Part shown: one piece after another, positions 1,156-36,676 of the stretch
Layout of the letters: each line of letters starts with the position of its first letter
Position numbering within the stretch: position 1 is the stretch's first letter
Assembly (NCBI GenBank): GCA_019308745.1
Contig: JAFDHO010000013.1
Coordinates: forward strand, 1 to 42,383
Direction of reading: 5' to 3'
Source: Deltaproteobacteria bacterium
GTDB lineage: Bacteria > Desulfobacterota > DSM-4660 > Desulfatiglandales > HGW-15
DNA: 42,383 nt
Program-made: the position numbers and the translations under genes
Notes under the pieces: model-generated
The model's database searches: none
What the model saw: the letters and a program-made list of their open reading frames with translations, nothing else
Told to the model about the DNA's origin: nothing

Positions 1156-2205
1156 CTATCCCTTCAGGAAGATCTTCTCAATGACGAGGCCCAGTTCCTC
1201 CCCATTGGGTAAATAGGGATAGTTCCACTGGCGGGGGCCAGGAAGACAGTTTCCAAAGGGGCGGTTGCACGCCACTCTTCCATCTGGTCCCAGGCAGCCG
1301 GTCGTCATAAAGGGAGTCCCGCTGTTGATAATTTCCATGAGGACCGTTTCTTCAAGCCCAAAATGGGTTATACGCCCTTCCGGATCAAACCCCATATCAT
1401 TATGCCTGCTCCTTCCGCTTTCAATGAGATAACGTGCAAGCTGTATTCTCAAATAACTGGACCAGGGGGGCTGGGGCCGGTCTGCCAGCACGGAGCCGTC
1501 CTCAGCATAGAAAGAGAAAAGATGATTGGCAACGCCCATGTTCCACAGCTCATCCATCAAACGAACCATTTCATATTCTGTCTCCCCCATCCCCACCATG
1601 AGATGGACGCCGACCTGGTATCTCCCAAAGACCTTGAGACTCGTCTCCATAGTCTGCCAGTACCTTTCATACCTGTGCGGGCCTCCCACGCCATTTCCGC
1701 GATATCTTTCAAAGAGTTGCTTGTTGGCCAGGTCCAGGGCAATACCCACCTTGTCAACACCCATGTCTTTGAGAACGACCAGGTCATCCTCTTTGATGAG
1801 GGTCGGGCTCAAAAGGACGGACACCGGAACTTCCGTCTCCTTCTTGAGCCGTCGTGCCATTTTTATTGTGTCGTCCCCGGCCTTTCCGTTCGTTATCATA
1901 GAGATGCAGCTCCGTTTCACATATCCTGGCGCGTGATTGATCCCATCGATGATCTGATCAAAGGGATACAAGGGCCAGTCCACATGGATGAAGCTTTTTT
2001 CATGATACTGACCCGGTCGCCTCTTGGCCAGGCCGCAGTAGGCGCAGTTGGCGGAGCAGCCTTCGGGATAATAGAGGAGGATATTGACACACCTATTTAC
2101 CGCATCCCGGTACATCCTCCCTCGGATGAAGCCAAGGGCGATTGCCGTGGCACGACTGATCTTGGCATATTCAGGACTGCAAATTCTTCTTGATAACCGA
2201 TTCAT
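1156..2205 (-). CDS. Radical SAM enzyme, LipS1/LipS2-like (BioB/LipA-related fold)
   Basis: With the ATG at 2205 the protein has 349 residues. The radical SAM motif CSANCAYC sits at about residues 50-57 and would bind the SAM-cleaving [4Fe-4S] cluster. A second cysteine set, CX8CX6C, lies near the C-terminus (GCLGPDGRVAC...NC) and suggests an auxiliary cluster, as sulphur-inserting enzymes of the lipoyl/biotin type have. GxGET and the barrel residues around VGVHLMVGMGE resemble BioB-type proteins. It follows the lipoate-protein ligase and GcvH-like genes in the same direction, so I infer a role in inserting sulphur into octanoyl groups (LipS1/LipS2 pathway) rather than classical LipA. Only one such gene is in the window, whereas LipS1 and LipS2 normally act together, so the partner must lie elsewhere if this is right. 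The frame is open to a TTG at 2265, but conserved-looking sequence starts near 2205. Confidence 0.7.
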   Translation of the reverse strand: MNRLSRRICSPEYAKISRATAIALGFIRGRMYRDAVNRCVNILLYYPEGCSANCAYCGLAKRRPGQYHEKSFIHVDWPLYPFDQIIDGINHAPGYVKRSCISMITNGKAGDDTIKMARRLKKETEVPVSVLLSPTLIKEDDLVVLKDMGVDKVGIALDLANKQLFERYRGNGVGGPHRYERYWQTMETSLKVFGRYQVGVHLMVGMGETEYEMVRLMDELWNMGVANHLFSFYAEDGSVLADRPQPPWSSYLRIQLARYLIESGRSRHNDMGFDPEGRITHFGLEETVLMEIINSGTPFMTTGCLGPDGRVACNRPFGNCLPGPRQWNYPYLPNGEELGLVIEKIFLKG

Positions 2206-2328
2206 CTCATTAGCCACAAACTCACACAGACACAGACATTTTGTCCGGCGGACATGGCCGAACAAATAATGCCATCCGCCTTCGGCAGAATGGAGAAACT
2301 TTTGCCGGCACCTGGCCGTGCGCCGTGC

Positions 2329-3399
2329 TTACAGTCTCACCTGATTTTCCTTGGCCATCATGATAGCTCGAATCAGGCTTTCGGGCTCGAGGCCATAGAT
2401 CATATCCTTGCGCCACTCTCTAATGACCTTTTCTCTAATACTCTCTTCCCTGGCAGAGGCCCAGCGGAGCGCGCTTTCCAGGCGACCCAAATCCTCTTCT
2501 GCTGCAAAGAAATCCCCTGTAATGATGACGTTCTCTATTGAACCACCGGAGAGGGAAAGATATACCTCGAGGAGACCCGCCCCAGTCTTCAATCGACCTA
2601 TTCCCATTCTGGACCTCGGGTGTTTGTGGGAGAAGATCCAATCCCTGTTTCTGTACCGATTGACTATGAGCCGGTCAATGTTTTCCCTTTCCCATTCATC
2701 AGGCTCCGAGTCCTTGAGCCCGATGTCCAACTCCCTTTCAAAGGACCCCTGGATCGAGTCCATAACCTCCCATACCTGAATATCCCTTCCGGTCTCCCTC
2801 CTTACGGTTGTCATGCGCTGGCTGAAGCAGTTGTATCCTTTGTCCTGGACCTTGATTAAGGGAGTGTTCATGATATCGAGCATGAGTGGTATATCGAAAT
2901 CCACCAGAAGGCTGGTATGAAACAGCAGTCCCCTCCCCTTCTCCGAAGCTGCAGACAGGCCGGCTATCTTCCTGCCTTCCACCTCCAGGTCGTTTTTCGG
3001 CCTGAAGCGGGCCTTGATATGGAATCTCTCCAGGGCCCTGCAAAGAACCCGGCCAAGGGATTGGAAAATCCCGCCCACGGTACCGCCATTCAAACAGGGA
3101 TGATTTATCCCTATTCCCAGACCCAGGGCGACGATTTCAGGACCCATGATCACCGTTCCCCCACCCGTACTTCTCCTGTTGTATTCAATCCCCCTTGCCA
3201 TACACCTCTCCAGTCTCAGGGCGGCCTCAATGTCTTGATATTTTCCGATAATGACAGATGGGACAAAAGTGTAGAGGTGCAGAACAGGGGGAGAATCATG
3301 TTCAGTGACAGATAGGGGCAGGCTATCATCCACTGCCAGGCCTTCCGCAGTAGAAACAGGAACAGACACATCCTTGAATAATCGCCAGGATTCCTTCAT
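2329..3399 (-). CDS. lplA: Lipoate-protein ligase A family protein (two-domain)
   Basis: About 356 residues from the ATG at 3399 (the frame is open to 3477). The biotin/lipoate ligase core is present: SVIIGKYQD, then RRSTGGGTV, the signature of the lipoyl-AMP binding loop, then the NDLEVEGRKIAG-type motif with the catalytic lysine. A C-terminal accessory domain (about the last 100 residues, SRMGIGRLKTGAGLLEVYL) corresponds to the LplA C-terminal/LplB part, so ligase and accessory domain are fused. It would activate lipoate or octanoate with ATP and transfer it to a lysine of a carrier protein. The GcvH-like gene just upstream is the obvious acceptor and the radical SAM gene downstream a likely partner. 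Confidence 0.85.
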   Translation of the reverse strand: MKESWRLFKDVSVPVSTAEGLAVDDSLPLSVTEHDSPPVLHLYTFVPSVIIGKYQDIEAALRLERCMARGIEYNRRSTGGGTVIMGPEIVALGLGIGINHPCLNGGTVGGIFQSLGRVLCRALERFHIKARFRPKNDLEVEGRKIAGLSAASEKGRGLLFHTSLLVDFDIPLMLDIMNTPLIKVQDKGYNCFSQRMTTVRRETGRDIQVWEVMDSIQGSFERELDIGLKDSEPDEWERENIDRLIVNRYRNRDWIFSHKHPRSRMGIGRLKTGAGLLEVYLSLSGGSIENVIITGDFFAAEEDLGRLESALRWASAREESIREKVIREWRKDMIYGLEPESLIRAIMMAKENQVRL

Positions 3400-3510
3400 G
3401 GGGGACACCATCTCAACGGAACGAGGCCTCCCATCGCCTAACGGGAGGCCAGGGCTCCAACACAAAAGAGATAACAAGAGGGGGAAATCTCCTTCGATAA
3501 ATCCCCTTGC

Positions 3511-3951
3511 CTAGGCCTTGGCCCTTTCTTCCTCCGCCCTTTTTATCTCTTCTTCAATAAAAGCAACGACGGCATCACCATGAATCAGGTTTTCCAACTC
3601 GGACTCGAGATCATCGGTGGCCTCGATGACGACTATCCAGCCTTCTCCGTAAGGATCGCTGTTTATGAGCGTCGTATCCTCCTCAAGCTCTTCGTTGATC
3701 TCAACGATCTCTCCGGAGATGGGAGCAACAAGGTTTCCGATCCATTTCCTTGATTGGATCTTTCCGCAGACTTCTCCCTGGCTCACCTCATCCTCCTCGT
3801 CAGGGAAATCAACAAAGACGATGTCCCCTGCCTCCTTTTGGAAGAAGTCCGTCATACCCACAGTCACCCTCGTCCCATCGACCCGGGCCCAGCTATGTTC
3901 CCGATGGTAATAGAGATCATCCGGCATGTTGTAACCTTTGATATCAGCCAT
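3511..3951 (-). CDS. GcvH-like lipoyl carrier protein
   Basis: 146 residues from the ATG at 3951, chosen over a GTG six bases upstream because AAGGAGG is better spaced for it. It has the glycine cleavage H-protein fold: YYHREHSWARVDG at the start, GDIVFVDFPDEE, then the lipoyl-lysine hairpin GKIQSRKWIG with the acceptor Lys at about residue 69, followed by VAPISGEIVEIN and the GWIVVIE strand. Canonical H proteins have S-V-K-A at the modified site; here it is S-R-K-W, so it may be a dedicated carrier variant. The C-terminus is extended by a charged Glu/Lys-rich helix. No gcvT or gcvP is nearby. Its place next to lplA and a LipS-like enzyme supports lipoylation. Confidence 0.8.
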   Translation of the reverse strand: MADIKGYNMPDDLYYHREHSWARVDGTRVTVGMTDFFQKEAGDIVFVDFPDEEDEVSQGEVCGKIQSRKWIGNLVAPISGEIVEINEELEEDTTLINSDPYGEGWIVVIEATDDLESELENLIHGDAVVAFIEEEIKRAEEERAKA

Positions 3952-4058
3952 TCGCACACCCTCCTTCTCTTTAGGCTATTGCGCACATCCTTTCAACGGC
4001 TCTACGATAGGAAAATGAGAGCGGGGCTTCCCCGGACCGCGGTCATGGCCCTGTTCTT

Positions 4059-26463: not shown

Positions 26464-26617
26464 CTGCCCTCCACACCATCCTCCCTCTCCCGTCAGGAAT
26501 TATTAGACCCTTGGACAAGCCCATCTAACCTGTCCCGAGGCAAATTCAAGGTCCTGTTGAAAAACATCACTGGATATGATAACTGGATAGGGCCTGTCCT
26601 CCGAAGGAGTATTGATA

Positions 26618-28045
26618 ATGGACCCAGAGACAAACCTCGACATCTTTTTTGGACCTGAATCAGTAGCAATTATCGGGGCCACAGAAAGACCCGGATCGTG
26701 GGGCTCCATCATTATGGAGAGTCTCCTCTCAAGGCATTTTCAGGGAAGAATCTGTCCCGTGAACCTGAATGCCAAAGCCATCCATGGCGTCCCCGCTTAC
26801 AGAGATATTCGTGAAATCCCCGGAGCCGTGGATTTGGTGATTCTGACAATACCGCAGGAATCTCTCGAGCAGACTATCGAAGCCTGCGGTGAAAAGGGAG
26901 TCAAGGGCGTTGTTATTGTTACTTCCGGGTTCGGTGAGACTTCCGACGAAGGCATGGATAGAGAAAGGATCATAGCGAAAATATCTCGAAGACATGAAGT
27001 GAGGATCCTCGGCCCTAATGTGAGCGGTGTCTTCAATCTCCATAAGAACTTCGTGGCATCAGGAGCACGTTCAAGACAATTGAAGGGAAGCCGTCTCGCT
27101 GCCGCCAGCCAGGGGGGGTTTGCCTTCCAGGATCTTCTGGCCGCCGGTGCCAATAGAGGAATGGGCGTGGGCAAATTCGTCCATACCGGGAATGAGAGCG
27201 ATCTCACCGTAACGGATTTTCTGGAACACTATTCCGAAGATAAGGATGTGAAGGCCGTCCTGCTCTATATAGAAAGCATTCGCGATGGCAGGAGATTCAT
27301 TGAAGTCGCTCGCAGGGCGACGGGAAGGAAGCCCGTTATCGTCTATAAAGCAGGCCGGACAGGGAGCAGTTCCAGGGCAGCCCGTAGTCATACGGCAGCC
27401 CTGACTGGAAACTGGAAGGTCTACCAGGGGCTTTTCAGTCAGGTGGGCATCATCGTCTCTCCGACAATGGAGATCTTGCTCCCTTTAGGTCATGCCCTTG
27501 TTGAGCGCCCTCCCCTGCATGGCAACAGGATAGGGATAGTTACAATGGGGGGCAGCTGGGGTGTGGTCCTGTCCGATTCCCTGGAAGAGGCGGGCCTGGT
27601 GGTTCCCGAACTGAGCTCACGATTACAAGAGCGTCTCCATGATATGGGGATGCCGGAACGGGCCTCCACGAGAAACCCCATAGACATAGGCGCAGCAGGG
27701 CCTTTCCCTCCCTTTGAGATGGTCCTTTCCGTTGGAAGGGAGGTGTTGACTTCCGGGGAAATAGATGCGCTTGTCCTCCATGGGATAGGAAGGCCCGGAA
27801 GGGTTGTAGGTCTGGCCGAGTCTGAAAGAGACCCCTTCCTGGACTTCGAAATCCGCTTTATGCAGGCCTTCGTGGAGCTTGAAAAAGAGATCTCCCGGCC
27901 CGTCCTCATTGGCAATCACCACTCCCCCTGGGAGAGCCAGGCTGTCCATGAAATGAACAAGAGAGGGGTCATGATCTACAATCGCATAGATGACATTGCC
28001 GCCATCCTCGCCCGGATGCACAAGTACTGGGAAAGGAAGAGATAG
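26618..28045 (+). CDS. NDP-forming acyl-CoA synthetase, alpha-subunit-like (CoA-binding/succinyl-CoA-ligase domains only)
   Basis: 476 residues from ATG 26618, eight bases after AAGGAG (the TTG at 26612 is too close). The N-terminal CoA-binding Rossmann part (FGPESVAIIGATERPGSWG, GKGVKGVVIVTSGFGE, RILGPNVSGVFN) is followed by succinyl-CoA-ligase-like domains with the catalytic histidine in ARSHTAALTG. Enzymes of this type make acetyl- or acyl-CoA with ATP or the reverse. The ATP-grasp beta domain that phosphorylates them is absent here and from neighbouring genes, so this subunit needs a partner elsewhere or has another role. Confidence 0.8.
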   Translation: MDPETNLDIFFGPESVAIIGATERPGSWGSIIMESLLSRHFQGRICPVNLNAKAIHGVPAYRDIREIPGAVDLVILTIPQESLEQTIEACGEKGVKGVVIVTSGFGETSDEGMDRERIIAKISRRHEVRILGPNVSGVFNLHKNFVASGARSRQLKGSRLAAASQGGFAFQDLLAAGANRGMGVGKFVHTGNESDLTVTDFLEHYSEDKDVKAVLLYIESIRDGRRFIEVARRATGRKPVIVYKAGRTGSSSRAARSHTAALTGNWKVYQGLFSQVGIIVSPTMEILLPLGHALVERPPLHGNRIGIVTMGGSWGVVLSDSLEEAGLVVPELSSRLQERLHDMGMPERASTRNPIDIGAAGPFPPFEMVLSVGREVLTSGEIDALVLHGIGRPGRVVGLAESERDPFLDFEIRFMQAFVELEKEISRPVLIGNHHSPWESQAVHEMNKRGVMIYNRIDDIAAILARMHKYWERKR

Positions 28046-32049: not shown

Positions 32050-32156
32050 TAAAAATCAGCATCTAGACCTTGACAATAAATTATTCCCGATGCAAGACTT
32101 GAGATCGACGAGAAAGGATGGGCCGATCTGAGCCGTGAAAAAGGAGTATGGCGCCT

Positions 32157-32399
32157 ATGAGTCAAGACGCCTTTGAAATAGAGTTCATGCCCGAGTTCAA
32201 GGCCCCTGTCCTGATAGCGGGATTTGACGGCTGGGGAAATGCCCTCGACGTATCAAGGGGAATGGTGGACTACCTGGCCAACAAACTGGGTGCTCTCCCC
32301 TTTGCGAGAATCAACCCTGACCTTTTCTATCGGTTTGACGAAGAGCGCCCTGTCGTGGACATCGGTCTTTCAAAGGGTCCTGAGCATTACCCGGTCTGA
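32157..32399 (+). pseudogene. Truncated PAC2-family gene (N-terminal part only)
   Basis: 80 residues from ATG 32157, ten bases after AAGGAG. It matches the first part of PAC2/COG2047 proteins: PVLIAGFDGWGNALDVS, MVDYLANKLGA, FYRFDEERPVVDI. PAC2 proteins are normally about 250-300 residues; here the resemblance ends after RPVVDI and a stop follows at 32397. The next gene begins 50 bases further on the other strand, so the rest of the gene was lost, perhaps when that junction formed. Confidence 0.65.
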
Positions 32400-32447: not shown

Positions 32448-33299
32448 CTAATGACCGAGCCTTTGCCCCCTGCAGGATGAATCCGCAAATAGGGCCGCAC
32501 CAAGGGCTGGTGCTAGCGCAGGGTCCCATTCAGCTTTGGGGGCCAGCGCGTTTACCTCTAATATTCTTTCCAGCCATTTCGTTATTCCCGAGTTCTTGGC
32601 CAAGCCACCTATGATTGCCAAATCCTCTTTCAGGCCCAGTCGCAAAACCAACGTGCTGATTCTCTTGGCCATGGCATAGTGGTAGGCAGTTACGACTTGT
32701 TCGAGGGGCACCTTGCTTCGCACGAGGTCGAGGGCCTCCGATTGGGCATACACCGCACAGAAGTCACTGAGCTTCGGGAAACCATCCGTTTGAAGGCCAC
32801 GCTTCCCGATTTTCTTCGGTTCTGCCCCGGCCAGGTCTGCAAATGATTCCAGGGAGCGACCAATACCGGCTGCGCACTTGTCATTCCAGAGAAAGGCGGT
32901 CGCTCGACCTTTTTCCGTGCAGTGGGTTATCCTGCAACTTTCCCCTCCGGCATCCAGGACCGTTCGCACAGACGGACCCCAGATGCGGACAGCCCCAGCA
33001 GCGCCGCACGGGATTTCGGATACCCTTCTATGGGCAAAGGGGACCTGGCTCCTCCCACAACCGGTTGCCACAACATAACGAATATCTTCTGCCTTCAACC
33101 GACCCTTTGCCAGGGCCGCGTCCATCGCCCTTGAGGCGGATTCCTTGGGTATTCGAGTGTCCACTTGGGAAAGGGCGTAAGGTTGTCCCTCCAGCAGAAT
33201 CACGACCTTTGTGCTCACGGCGCCACTATCCACGCCAGCTACTACCATCTCGGTTCCGGTCCAGGCCAAGTTCTCATTGACCGAAGCGCATTCTTTCAT
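32448..33299 (-). CDS. BcrA/BadF/HgdC-type activator ATPase subunit (second of two)
   Basis: 283 residues with the ASKHA fold: VVAGVDSGAVSTKVV (phosphate 1), VATGCGRSQV, VLDAGGESC (phosphate 2), IGGLAKNSGI (adenosine). The two cysteines that in HgdC/BcrAD hold the [4Fe-4S] cluster at the dimer interface are present in NDKCAAGIG and FCAVYAQSEA. Such ATPases drive one electron at low potential into the dehydratase/reductase subunits. An ATG at about 33248 could be the true start, since the first 17 residues are not typical. Its start overlaps the end of the other ATPase gene (ATGA). Confidence 0.88.
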   Translation of the reverse strand: MKECASVNENLAWTGTEMVVAGVDSGAVSTKVVILLEGQPYALSQVDTRIPKESASRAMDAALAKGRLKAEDIRYVVATGCGRSQVPFAHRRVSEIPCGAAGAVRIWGPSVRTVLDAGGESCRITHCTEKGRATAFLWNDKCAAGIGRSLESFADLAGAEPKKIGKRGLQTDGFPKLSDFCAVYAQSEALDLVRSKVPLEQVVTAYHYAMAKRISTLVLRLGLKEDLAIIGGLAKNSGITKWLERILEVNALAPKAEWDPALAPALGAALFADSSCRGQRLGH

Positions 33300-34093
33300 C
33301 TCTCACCCTCGCAGCTCATGACTGCGCCTAACGCAACCGCATATTCCGGGAGGTCCAATACGGTAATGTCCATTCCTATCAAATCCCGGAGGCGCATAAT
33401 AAGCGCTCGAGATCTGGCCAGTCCTCCCATTGCCACGATCTCTTTTGTGAGCGGCATATAGGTGCAGATGGCGGCAACCCGTTCTGCCATAAACCCCGTC
33501 ACAGCGCCCGCCACATCTCTTATGTCCTTGCCTTGACACAGCAGATCAATGGCATCGGATTCAGCGCACTGGGCGCAATGAACCCCAATGGATAGGTGAT
33601 CGTTGGATTCGAGGGCCAAATCGGACATCTCCTGCTCACTCAGTCCCATGGCTTTCGTTATCCTGGTGTAGAATATACCGAGGCCATCAGCACATTTGTC
33701 GTTTTGAACAACGTCCAGGAGATCCCCCTTCTGGTCATAGTGGATGGCCATATGCACATTCCCGCCAATATCGATGACTGTCCTGGAATCCCCATTAAGA
33801 AACAGGGCCCCCTTAGCAGCCGCCTCGTACTCGGGGACCGATCTGATCCTTTTCCAGGGGAGGTTCCCTACCACGTCTCTGAAAATCCCAGTGGTTACGA
33901 TTCCGCCCAATTCGCTGCACGAGATTCCGGCACTGTCCGCAGCATCATTCAGTGCCTTTCGAGCCGAGGCTCCCGCGTCGAATCCCGTGGGCACTTTGCT
34001 ATGACCCAGGATCTCCTGTCCCTTCATAATGACGGCCTTTGTACTGACGTGGCCTGCATCCAGTCCGCCCGGAATTCCCATCCTCTCGTTCAT
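33296..34093 (-). CDS. BcrD/HgdC-type activator ATPase subunit (first of two)
   Basis: 265 residues, close to HgdC length. Motifs: GGLDAGHVSTKAVIM, VTTGIFRDVVG, VIDIGGNVHM, NDKCADGLGIF and VHCAQCAESDAI (cluster cysteines), and VAMGGLARS. It is clearly different in sequence from the downstream ATPase, so the two probably form a heterodimer as BcrA-BcrD or BzdP-BzdQ do, rather than the homodimer of HgdC. Its start overlaps the stop of the BcrC-like gene by four bases. An internal ATG four codons in is possible. Confidence 0.88.
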   Translation of the reverse strand: MNERMGIPGGLDAGHVSTKAVIMKGQEILGHSKVPTGFDAGASARKALNDAADSAGISCSELGGIVTTGIFRDVVGNLPWKRIRSVPEYEAAAKGALFLNGDSRTVIDIGGNVHMAIHYDQKGDLLDVVQNDKCADGLGIFYTRITKAMGLSEQEMSDLALESNDHLSIGVHCAQCAESDAIDLLCQGKDIRDVAGAVTGFMAERVAAICTYMPLTKEIVAMGGLARSRALIMRLRDLIGMDITVLDLPEYAVALGAVMSCEGER

Positions 34094-35256
34094 GGTGTCA
34101 CCCGGTTTATTATTTCTATAAGGGCTTCTAGTTGCGTCCCAAACTGAATTCTTGGTAGGATTGTATCAAGTTCCAGCTCGGTCGACGGTATGCCCAATCT
34201 GTTCAAGACAGGCTTTAGTTCCACAACATCCATCGGCTGCGGGCTACAAAACCTCTGATAGACAAACACGACTCCGTCTGGCCTGAAGTCCTCGATGAAT
34301 TGCTGTATAAACCTGAACCTCTTTTTCTCCCCTGTTCCAGGGACATTGTCCTTTGCAGGACAGGGGATTCTGCTGACATATCCCTTAGCGATGGCCTTGA
34401 GTTTATCAGGTTCACCCTCGGGGACCTCAAACCAGAAGTACCTGGCTGCTGTACAGGAATCAATGAAGATTAAATTCGCTCTATAGCTTAGATTTTCCAT
34501 CAAATCGAAGATTCGCAGGTCGTCACAGGCGCCTCCTGTTACCATCAGCCTGACCCCTGACGCCTCTTTCCCCGAATCGGTTTCTAGGTTCCGGACAAGC
34601 TGCTCGAGCATTTGATTGCATTCGTGCTTGTCCATGACCTGTGATGCCAGTGTCACCATTTCCACCTCCCGCCCGTTTATGGGGAGGTTATCCAGCCTCA
34701 AGAACTCCCAGAGCCGCTTGAGGAGTCTCCTATTCTGGTTGTAGACTTTGATGGCCCTCTCAAGATCGTCATCCGTAACGGTCCTTCCCGTCAACTCCTC
34801 GATGAATTCCTTGAAACCCTGAAAAGACTCCACCAGGAAATCGACAGCAGGCTTGGCTTCTATGATATGAGGGAAGGGAAGGAGAAAACTCTTTTCCTGG
34901 AACCCGGCAAACCTGACCCAGACATTGAATGCCTCGGCCATATGAATGCAACTGCTACTGTGTGCGATCAGGTCCAAGTAATCATAGGTGTGCTGAAGTC
35001 CCTGATATGCGCAATCGTGTGAAAAAGAGCAGTATGTTTCGTGCAAGTAGCTCCTTGTCATTGCCTGCGAAACGTGGGAGCCTAGGATTCTCACGGGCAT
35101 GATTCTCGCCGCATATAAGACCTCTTCGGGGACGTGGGTGCACATGTATCCGGCCAAGAGGTGCCCTTTCCTCTGGAGGAATCTGGCATATTCATGCCTA
35201 TTCTCGGTCACCTGCCGAAAATGGTTGATTATGTCCTCAGAATCCTTCTTCACCAT
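34090..35256 (-). CDS. Benzoyl-CoA reductase / 2-hydroxyacyl-CoA dehydratase subunit, BcrC/HgdB-like
   Basis: 388 residues. Conserved cysteine-bearing segments of the family are visible: AGYMCTHVPEEVLYAARIMPVR, YCSFSHDCAYQ, the SSSC segment after LDLIAHS, and near the end GVVFVYQRFCSPQPMDVVELKPVL with GIPSTELELD. These cysteines normally bind a [4Fe-4S] cluster next to the CoA substrate. The protein would pair with the BcrB-like subunit, receiving electrons from the two activator ATPases. The gene begins four bases after the BcrB-like stop. Whether it reduces an aromatic ring or dehydrates a hydroxyacyl-CoA cannot be told. Confidence 0.88.
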   Translation of the reverse strand: MVKKDSEDIINHFRQVTENRHEYARFLQRKGHLLAGYMCTHVPEEVLYAARIMPVRILGSHVSQAMTRSYLHETYCSFSHDCAYQGLQHTYDYLDLIAHSSSCIHMAEAFNVWVRFAGFQEKSFLLPFPHIIEAKPAVDFLVESFQGFKEFIEELTGRTVTDDDLERAIKVYNQNRRLLKRLWEFLRLDNLPINGREVEMVTLASQVMDKHECNQMLEQLVRNLETDSGKEASGVRLMVTGGACDDLRIFDLMENLSYRANLIFIDSCTAARYFWFEVPEGEPDKLKAIAKGYVSRIPCPAKDNVPGTGEKKRFRFIQQFIEDFRPDGVVFVYQRFCSPQPMDVVELKPVLNRLGIPSTELELDTILPRIQFGTQLEALIEIINRVTP

Positions 35257-35259
35257 TTC

Positions 35260-36576
35260 TCACGCTCTTCCTTTCCTGCGCGCTTCCATGAGACGAACCA
35301 ACAACTCGGTCTTCCGTTGAGAACCCGGCAAATCCATTTTTCGGACATCTACCTGGTCGGTATCGTATTCCACGGTGGGAATCTTGTCTCTAAAGAGCCG
35401 CTGCAATGCTATGTAACCATTCCTGAAGTCAGTCTCGCAACTACGGCTTGGGGCCAGCAAAAGGCCGTCGGCCCTGTATTCTTCTACCATGGCCGCAGCC
35501 ATCTGTTCCAGTGCCCAATAGGACCTGACGCCTTGCCAGGTAGGCCACCCCAGGGCTATCTTGACGAGCGCTCGGATGGCATCTCGTCTGGTGGACAAAT
35601 CCAGTTGGTCCACCCATTCAGGGTCAATGGGTTCCCATGACCACTTACCGTTTACAAATCCCGTGAAGTTTCCTGCCGTGCCGAAGGTGTAAATAGAAGC
35701 GACGATCTCGGCGCCGACATCCCTAAGGATCCTGGCGATTTCCGGATGCCCGTAAGTATGGGCCAGACCGAAATACACTATTCTGTAACGCTGATCTGAG
35801 ACCACACTCTGACCTGCCTCAACCATGCGCTTTACTTCATCGAACAGGGCACCGTACATACGAACGGTCTCGTCGGTAGTCCTGTCCACCATGGCCGGCG
35901 GGAAAAGCGCTATGAGCCGGCGCTCATCGAGAGGCGCGGGGGCATGTTTGTTGAGTGCACATATGTTGCCCCATAGGACCAGCACTTTGATTTCGTTCCG
36001 TGCTGCCCTGATGAACAGCTTGTCTGAAAACTCCCTTCCCGTCACTCTCTCGAGCCACCATATTCCTTCTTCCACCTGATCGCATACATACTTCACGACC
36101 CTTGGGTCCTTCTCTGCTTTTCCTCCACCGATCATGTCTATTGCATATATAGGTATGCCCCCTAAGCGTCTTGACACCTCCTGATACCATTTTGAGTGCT
36201 GGCTGCATAGATGTGTCGTCCAGATCAGATCTGGTTTGGGATATCCTTCCTTGATTGTTCTGTCTGTGATGGCTATCTTGTTCCGCACCACCTCCCCCAC
36301 AAACAGCTTCAGGTAGCTACAGGAGTGAAAGCCCAGACCTGCAGTTTCAGCTGCCAGAATATCCTTACGGCCCTCATCGGGGAAGGTCCCCGCCGTTGAT
36401 GCAGCATGAGGCTCTCCCCCAATTAGGTGTACGTCTTCACCTAAGCCCTTTAGAGGGGCCAGCACACTCCAAGTAGAGCCCATGCACCGGAGACCATCGG
36501 AAGCATACAGGTAGTTCCTGTAGCAGGTGCTCTGGTAGTTCTTGAAATCATTCCAGGTTGTTAATGTGTATGACAT
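35260..36576 (-). CDS. Benzoyl-CoA reductase / 2-hydroxyacyl-CoA dehydratase subunit, BcrB/HgdA-like
   Basis: 438 residues from ATG 36576, five bases after GGAGG; the longer TTG frame (36588) would overlap that ribosome site. Family features: a CoA-site start (LKGLGEDVHLIGGEP), FHSCSYLKLFVG, LIWTTHLCSQHSKWY followed by GGIPIYAIDM, and near the end LLLAPSRSCETDFRNGY with IPTVEYDTD. The cysteines could hold a [4Fe-4S] cluster. It is the first gene of the four-gene operon and would form the catalytic heterodimer with the BcrC-like protein. Confidence 0.87.
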   Translation of the reverse strand: MSYTLTTWNDFKNYQSTCYRNYLYASDGLRCMGSTWSVLAPLKGLGEDVHLIGGEPHAASTAGTFPDEGRKDILAAETAGLGFHSCSYLKLFVGEVVRNKIAITDRTIKEGYPKPDLIWTTHLCSQHSKWYQEVSRRLGGIPIYAIDMIGGGKAEKDPRVVKYVCDQVEEGIWWLERVTGREFSDKLFIRAARNEIKVLVLWGNICALNKHAPAPLDERRLIALFPPAMVDRTTDETVRMYGALFDEVKRMVEAGQSVVSDQRYRIVYFGLAHTYGHPEIARILRDVGAEIVASIYTFGTAGNFTGFVNGKWSWEPIDPEWVDQLDLSTRRDAIRALVKIALGWPTWQGVRSYWALEQMAAAMVEEYRADGLLLAPSRSCETDFRNGYIALQRLFRDKIPTVEYDTDQVDVRKMDLPGSQRKTELLVRLMEARRKGRA

Positions 36577-36617: not shown

Positions 36618-36676
36618 CTTCAGTTGGTTATAGAAACCCACGCCCTGTGGGCGTGGGTTTCTATAACCAACTGAAG
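36618..36676. repeat. Perfect palindrome: 28-base arms, 3-base loop
   Basis: Left arm 36618-36645 and right arm 36649-36676 are exact reverse complements, with loop TGT. The centre is CCCACGCCC-TGT-GGGCGTGGG and the outer part CTTCAGTTGG...CCAACTGAAG. It starts three bases after the sirtuin stop, ahead of the BcrB-like gene. As RNA it would form a very stable hairpin, but no T-run follows. The centre resembles hairpins at IS200/IS605-type ends. Confidence 0.9.

Follow-up and report, generated by a model that had tools for sequence, protein, structure and literature searches.

Which enzyme is encoded by a four-gene operon that joins two catalytic-type subunits to two short, unequal activator ATPases, and which substrate would it reduce? 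The operon lies in a stretch of 42,383 nucleotides, here called the window, which is contig 136 in a 418-contig, 5.06-Mb assembly.

Organization of the operon

The four genes, named O, N, P, and Q after their BZD counterparts, form a complete set of BZD-like subunits (Table 1). Coordinates and subunit lengths given in a first-pass annotation of this DNA, including the 265 and 283 residues of the activators, were correct on re-reading. The 4-base overlaps that it described throughout are present at the N/P and P/Q junctions (ATGA), whereas a gap of 3 bases, with no overlap, lies between O and N. The O start codon is the ATG at 36576, with GGAGG just 5' of it.

Several other features of the window were recorded. 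An 83-residue plus-strand open reading frame without a Pfam match is located just downstream of Q (32148-32399), and a succinyl-CoA-ligase-like (ADP-forming) CoA-binding protein is encoded on the opposite strand, approximately 4.4 kb past the operon end (26612-28045). Genes for radical SAM, lipoate ligase-like, and GcvH-like proteins adjoin each other at 1156-3957.

Table 1. Features of the operon and its upstream region in the window
Feature	Position	Strand	Length	Description
O	35260..36576	(-)	438 aa	BzdO-like catalytic subunit; aryl-CoA site, expected [4Fe-4S]-OH2 cluster
N	34090..35256	(-)	388 aa	BzdN-like catalytic-dimer subunit; expected [8Fe-9S] double-cubane carrier
P	33296..34093	(-)	265 aa	BzdP-like ASKHA ATPase activator
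Q	32448..33299	(-)	283 aa	BzdQ-like ASKHA ATPase activator
Perfect inverted repeat	36618..36676	.		28-base arms, 3-base loop; between SIR2 gene and operon

Family assignment and phylogeny

The Pfam profile HGD-D matched O (E 4e-33) and N (E 9e-70), and BcrAD_BadFG matched P (E 7e-30) and Q (E 3e-35), profile evidence that puts the predicted family of the four subunits far beyond chance. Among NCBIfam profiles, O scored 201 bits with TIGR03191 bzdO (cut-off 449), N 223 bits with TIGR03190 bzdN (cut-off 454), and Q 217 bits with TIGR03192 bzdQ (cut-off 380), thus attaining just 45-57% of the bzd equivalog cut-offs. The cut-off of TIGR00241 was passed by P (136 bits) and by Q. In comparison with the Bcr/Bad type, O reached 52 bits with TIGR02260, against 201 with the bzdO profile, and TIGR02259 for the long BcrA-type activator of ~430 residues gave P/Q scores of only 59 and 81 bits.

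The best PDB matches were BzdO for O (8s02_A, E 1.9e-58) and BzdN for N (8s02_B, E 8.8e-65), with the dehydratase HadBC well behind; N scored 222 bits to BzdN versus 71 to MbdN, and the matches of P include MbdQ, HadI, and HgdC. O was modeled with AlphaFold (mean pLDDT 80.7), and Foldseek gave this model a TM score of 0.88 with BzdO 8s02_A, 0.76-0.78 with HadB (query-normalized), and 0.76 with MbdO. The Pfam, NCBIfam, and PDB matches together uphold the earlier placement in the benzoyl-CoA reductase/dehydratase superfamily.

In the trees for each of the four subunits, the window sequences belong to a clade with 100/100 support beside BZD. The trees were built without BcrB, BadE, and HgdA, the Bcr type being represented by profile scores alone, and the O tree, whose branches are long and whose backbone is only loosely rooted, is firm for the clade itself only. 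Phylogenies of all four subunits had been suggested by the first-pass annotation; they did not place all four inside an established clade, and the distinct group stands. Judged by ~30% identity and its own fully supported clades, the operon represents a clade sister to the BZD type and not BzdNOPQ itself. These sequence comparisons support well that the proteins belong to the class I aryl-CoA reductases, while they fall short of BzdNOPQ proper.

The activators were analyzed in a tree of 59 sequences, in every row of which both bridging-cluster cysteines are kept. P was the sister of BzdP (100/96) and Q the sister of BzdQ (100/99), and both fell apart from HgdC, HadI, MbdP, and MbdQ. A heterodimeric activator, as claimed previously, is supported by the origin of P and Q from separate BzdP and BzdQ sister clades, which rules out an HgdC-type homodimer. 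The lengths of about 435 and 280 residues quoted before for activators of benzoyl-CoA reductases hold for the Thauera/Rhodopseudomonas type but not for the MBD and BZD types, in which both are short: MbdQ has 269 and MbdP 273 residues, and in genuine bzd operons of the same order and phylum the activators are 254-270 and 290-309 residues long. A pair of short activators that differ in length is thus usual for the BZD type and no anomaly. The view that the set fits neither textbook layout was therefore wrong; with P beside BzdP and Q beside BzdQ, its make-up is that of the BZD type. Separately, a single reading frame of 1022 residues that carries two domains of the activator type was observed at G000:C404 (103083-104813).

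Catalytic residues and the ring pocket

The cluster ligands and active-site residues named in the BzdNO structure paper (PMC11971306) were used as reference positions. The window proteins have retained every one of the nine Fe-S cysteines of BzdNO, together with its acid/base residues. O keeps the cluster cysteines Cys95, Cys128, and Cys380 as well as Glu65, His131, Trp46, Ser44, Tyr97, and Tyr298, in every clade member, and the six double-cubane cysteines Cys36/73/100/263/293/327 are kept by N of the window and by all 14 full-length N proteins. BzdN His330 is replaced by Gln in window N.

Because all six double-cubane ligands are kept, the catalytic dimer looks reductase-like and not dehydratase-like. 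A 2-hydroxyacyl-CoA dehydratase resembling HgdABC or HadBC, in which one activated electron is recycled, would belong to the same superfamily, with HadBC the next relative in sequence and fold. HadC, however, has Pro at position 36 and Ala at 263, HadB has Val where O has His131, and the activators correspond to the BzdP/BzdQ pair instead of a single homodimer gene. A dehydratase is accordingly highly improbable and was rejected on the cysteine and His131 patterns.

In the BzdO pocket, the aromatic ring lies among Trp46, Leu302, Leu383, and Tyr97 (PMC11971306). Leu302 is replaced by Thr, Gly382 by Thr, and Gln274 by Ala in O of all clade members, whereas most bzd relatives within the same order and phylum retain Leu302 and Gln274. 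At position 383, Asp was aligned by MAFFT and Phe by HMMER instead of Leu; as a one-residue indel shifts the alignment there, only the Leu302 change is firm. The hydrophobic BzdNO-type ring pocket (Leu302 plus Leu383) was not found in O, and a polar ring substituent would plausibly fit the Leu302-to-Thr pocket.

Within the clade, 258 of 437 O columns are invariant among 15 members. At clade-invariant positions the window proteins deviate only a little more often than those of the other members, and they keep the catalytic residues; they accordingly do not resemble pseudogene products.

Distribution of the clade

O orthologs with 77-83% identity were found in 12 genome records plus further genomes, and the next homologs have ~30%. 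Two pairs of records are double entries (G379 = G472 and G413 = G464). The complete O-N-P-Q operon is present in 13 genomes, window included, and a 14th (L063) has a contig that ends before Q is complete. A search of other genomes for the same four-gene order, proposed earlier, thus returned O-N-P-Q without exception wherever all four genes are present. The G081 contig carries just the first 90 residues of O, and in G013/CP070673 (L045/L068) the operon is decayed: N breaks off at residue 239, and the locus lacks P and Q.

The host records are labeled Syntrophorhabdus, Syntrophorhabdaceae, Syntrophobacterales, Deltaproteobacteria, and Dethiobacter (Bacillota), so the family is conserved in at least two bacterial phyla. 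A Bacteroidetes bin has the operon on a 4-kb contig only and may be misbinned. N, P, and Q of the window are on longer branches than most orthologs. The plasmid search returned remote relatives only, and the literature search, with most subscription papers lying beyond its reach, found no paper on the present clade.

Additional HGD-D sets were noted. The genome of the window has a second set on contig C370 (L048, 7470-12235) in the order activator-N-O-activator, with all six cysteines in N, Arg at position 131 of O, and profiles divided between dehydratase and reductase. In G379 and G413, HGD-D pairs scoring much like this set occur at a distance of ~20 kb from O-N-P-Q.

Upstream region and putative regulation

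Putative TGAA-N5-TTCA operators were present within 300 bases before O at 13 of 14 loci checked, 22 sites in total versus 0.18 expected from dinucleotide shuffles, often directly after a TTGACA-like promoter. In the fetched loci, the motif is found mostly before the O-N-P-Q operon; at L065 (9199-14540) it also precedes the TRAP transporter genes and occurs near the TetR gene start. A putative TetR-family (YsiA/FadR-like) regulon was observed at this Dethiobacter locus, and likewise upstream of O in L058, L062, and L066.

The window was the sole exception, with no TGAA-N5-TTCA in the 300 bases upstream of O, and a close TetR repressor was not found in its assembly (best 30% identity). The place of the promoter/operator seen in the other operons is taken by the inverted repeat (Table 1), which occurs at a single place in the assembly. 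Expression of the window copy is uncertain, since it has neither operator nor close repressor and its N, P, and Q are on longer branches.

Genomic neighbors and co-occurrence with class II enzymes

An AMP-type CoA ligase or ring-cleavage gene was not found next to the operon in the window. The description of the operon as having no catabolic neighbors therefore holds here but not elsewhere, as orthologous operons adjoin catabolic genes. At four loci (L058, L060, L062, and L066), genes for a TetR-family regulator, an SDR, and an AFOR-family protein come after the operon; in L058, the AFOR-family protein is BamB of class II benzoyl-CoA reductase (PDB 4z3w, 1134 bits, whole length). Fe-S and CCG-domain genes, BamC-/BamD-like by position, and fdhD lie beyond bamB; in L060 the contig stops within bamB. 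A TRAP transporter and an AMP-forming ligase are encoded near the operon in L059 and L065, a ligase in L067, and a BenE transporter in L061. PEP-utilizing and PPDK_N proteins, which we take to resemble phenylphosphate synthase, are encoded just upstream of the operon in L064.

Tetrahydronaphthoyl-CoA reduction in strains N47 and NaphS2 is catalyzed by a class I enzyme, encoded in an ncr cluster (ncrABCD in NaphS2), and sulfate reducers that are strict anaerobes use bzdNOPQ-like enzymes for this reaction (PMC12016498). A reductase of this type, serving polycyclic aromatic degradation, is nevertheless very unlikely here: old-yellow-enzyme-family genes sit close to the ncr genes (PMC12016498), whereas no protein of that family was found among the scanned neighbor proteins, a comparison with ncr made by gene neighborhood alone.

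Other candidates from the neighborhood were also dropped. A MoCo trio upstream in L058, L062, and L066 was considered as a pointer to 4-hydroxybenzoyl-CoA, but the L058 copy scores nearer xanthine dehydrogenase than 4-hydroxybenzoyl-CoA reductase. The benzene 'Magic' cluster comprises different enzymes. Reading the substrate from neighbor genes was abandoned because they differ too much between loci; the earlier decision to leave the substrate open is upheld, the variable neighbors pointing to no single compound.

Class II genes were surveyed in fifteen operon-bearing genomes (G081 counted, G013 set aside). BamA at E<=1e-100 was found in 12/15 hosts, compared to 102/395 genomes in the phylum sample and 58/85 in the host order, and full or near-full BamB in 13/15. 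In the genome of the window, C414 encodes BamA, while BamB-like proteins are encoded by C308 (71%) and C382 (61%); BamA was absent at E<=1e-100 from G013, with its broken operon. This co-occurrence is moderate evidence only, because the hosts are related, the counts are non-independent, and BamA is common in the host order. The context ties the operon to aromatic catabolism.

Proposed function and substrate

The operon likely encodes an ATP-dependent class I aryl-CoA reductase, of the enzyme kind that attacks aromatic rings in the absence of oxygen, from a sister clade of the BZD type. We infer its cluster content, electron path, and dearomatization reaction as follows. The P/Q heterodimer would hold one bridging [4Fe-4S] cluster and be reduced by one electron from ferredoxin or another low-potential donor, and ATP hydrolysis would push this electron to N. 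Electrons would be stored on the double-cubane [8Fe-9S] cluster of N and handed to [4Fe-4S]-OH2 of O, where the CoA-bound aromatic ring would receive a hydrogen atom, then an electron and a proton, in a Birch-like dearomatization.

The substrate is probably not plain benzoyl-CoA, since most hosts encode class II BamB and position 302 is Thr in every member. Were the operon to encode an ordinary benzoyl-CoA reductase, sharing the substrate of BzdNOPQ, it would be a redundant second enzyme beside class II Bam. The whole catalytic set and the thioester-oxygen ligands Tyr97 and Tyr298 are kept, as this reading expects, and class I (bzd) and class II enzymes are found together in Desulfotomaculum gibsoniae (PMC4148979). 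It is nonetheless unlikely, as Leu302-to-Thr and Gln274-to-Ala are fixed at positions where bzd relatives mostly keep Leu and Gln, and an ATP-costly duplicate would seem wasteful in low-energy anaerobes, judging from PMC11971306. A polar, e.g., hydroxylated, aryl-CoA is favored as the substrate of the class I reductase, as a weakly supported guess. Tentatively, the enzyme may be a specialized ATP-dependent dearomatizing reductase for a polar aryl-CoA with a ring substituent, hydroxybenzoyl-CoA for example; its strictly anaerobic hosts would leave benzoyl-CoA to class II Bam, and a separate TetR-type repressor would control the ATP-dependent enzyme. If so, one cell would have two ring reductases that differ both in mechanism and in substrate.

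Comparison with known systems

ATP is consumed by class I reductases, which are as a rule attributed to facultative anaerobes (PMC11971306). In the strict anaerobe D. gibsoniae, with class I and II, the class I genes share 47-68% identity with bzdNOPQ, the roles of the two enzymes are unresolved, and the ATP need for benzoyl-CoA versus 3-hydroxybenzoyl-CoA was left open (PMC4148979). A conserved, regulated class-I-type enzyme in class II carriers bears on which aromatics need ATP, and its complete operons, recognizable putative operator, and fixed pocket differences make the substrate testable.

BzdNOPQ of Aromatoleum sp. CIB (PDB 8s02) is alike in its four subunits, two short distinct activators, nine Fe-S cysteines, Glu65/His131/Trp46, and fold (TM 0.88). 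It differs in gene order, N-O-P-Q compared to O-N-P-Q here, and the window proteins are ~30% identical to it, below the equivalog cut-offs, with Leu302, Gln274, Gly382, and BzdN His330 changed. MbdONPQ, the MBD-type 3-methylbenzoyl-CoA reductase of Thauera chlorobenzoica (PDB 9gai), also has two catalytic subunits and two short activators but is much more distant, and MbdN lacks cysteines aligned at 36, 263, and 293. The Bcr/Bad type (Thauera BcrABCD and Rhodopseudomonas BadDEFG) shares the overall enzyme class; the window, with activators of 265 and 283 aa, has no 430-residue activator. The (R)-2-hydroxyisocaproyl-CoA dehydratase HadBC with HadI (PDB 3o3m and 4eht) shares the superfamily, the ASKHA activator, and HGD-D catalytic subunits, but its activator is homodimeric and it has neither the double-cubane ligand set nor His131. 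Class II BamBCDEFGHI belongs to the same presumed pathway, with BamB in most hosts and beside the operon in four loci, but is a non-homologous tungsten enzyme that employs bifurcation in place of ATP.
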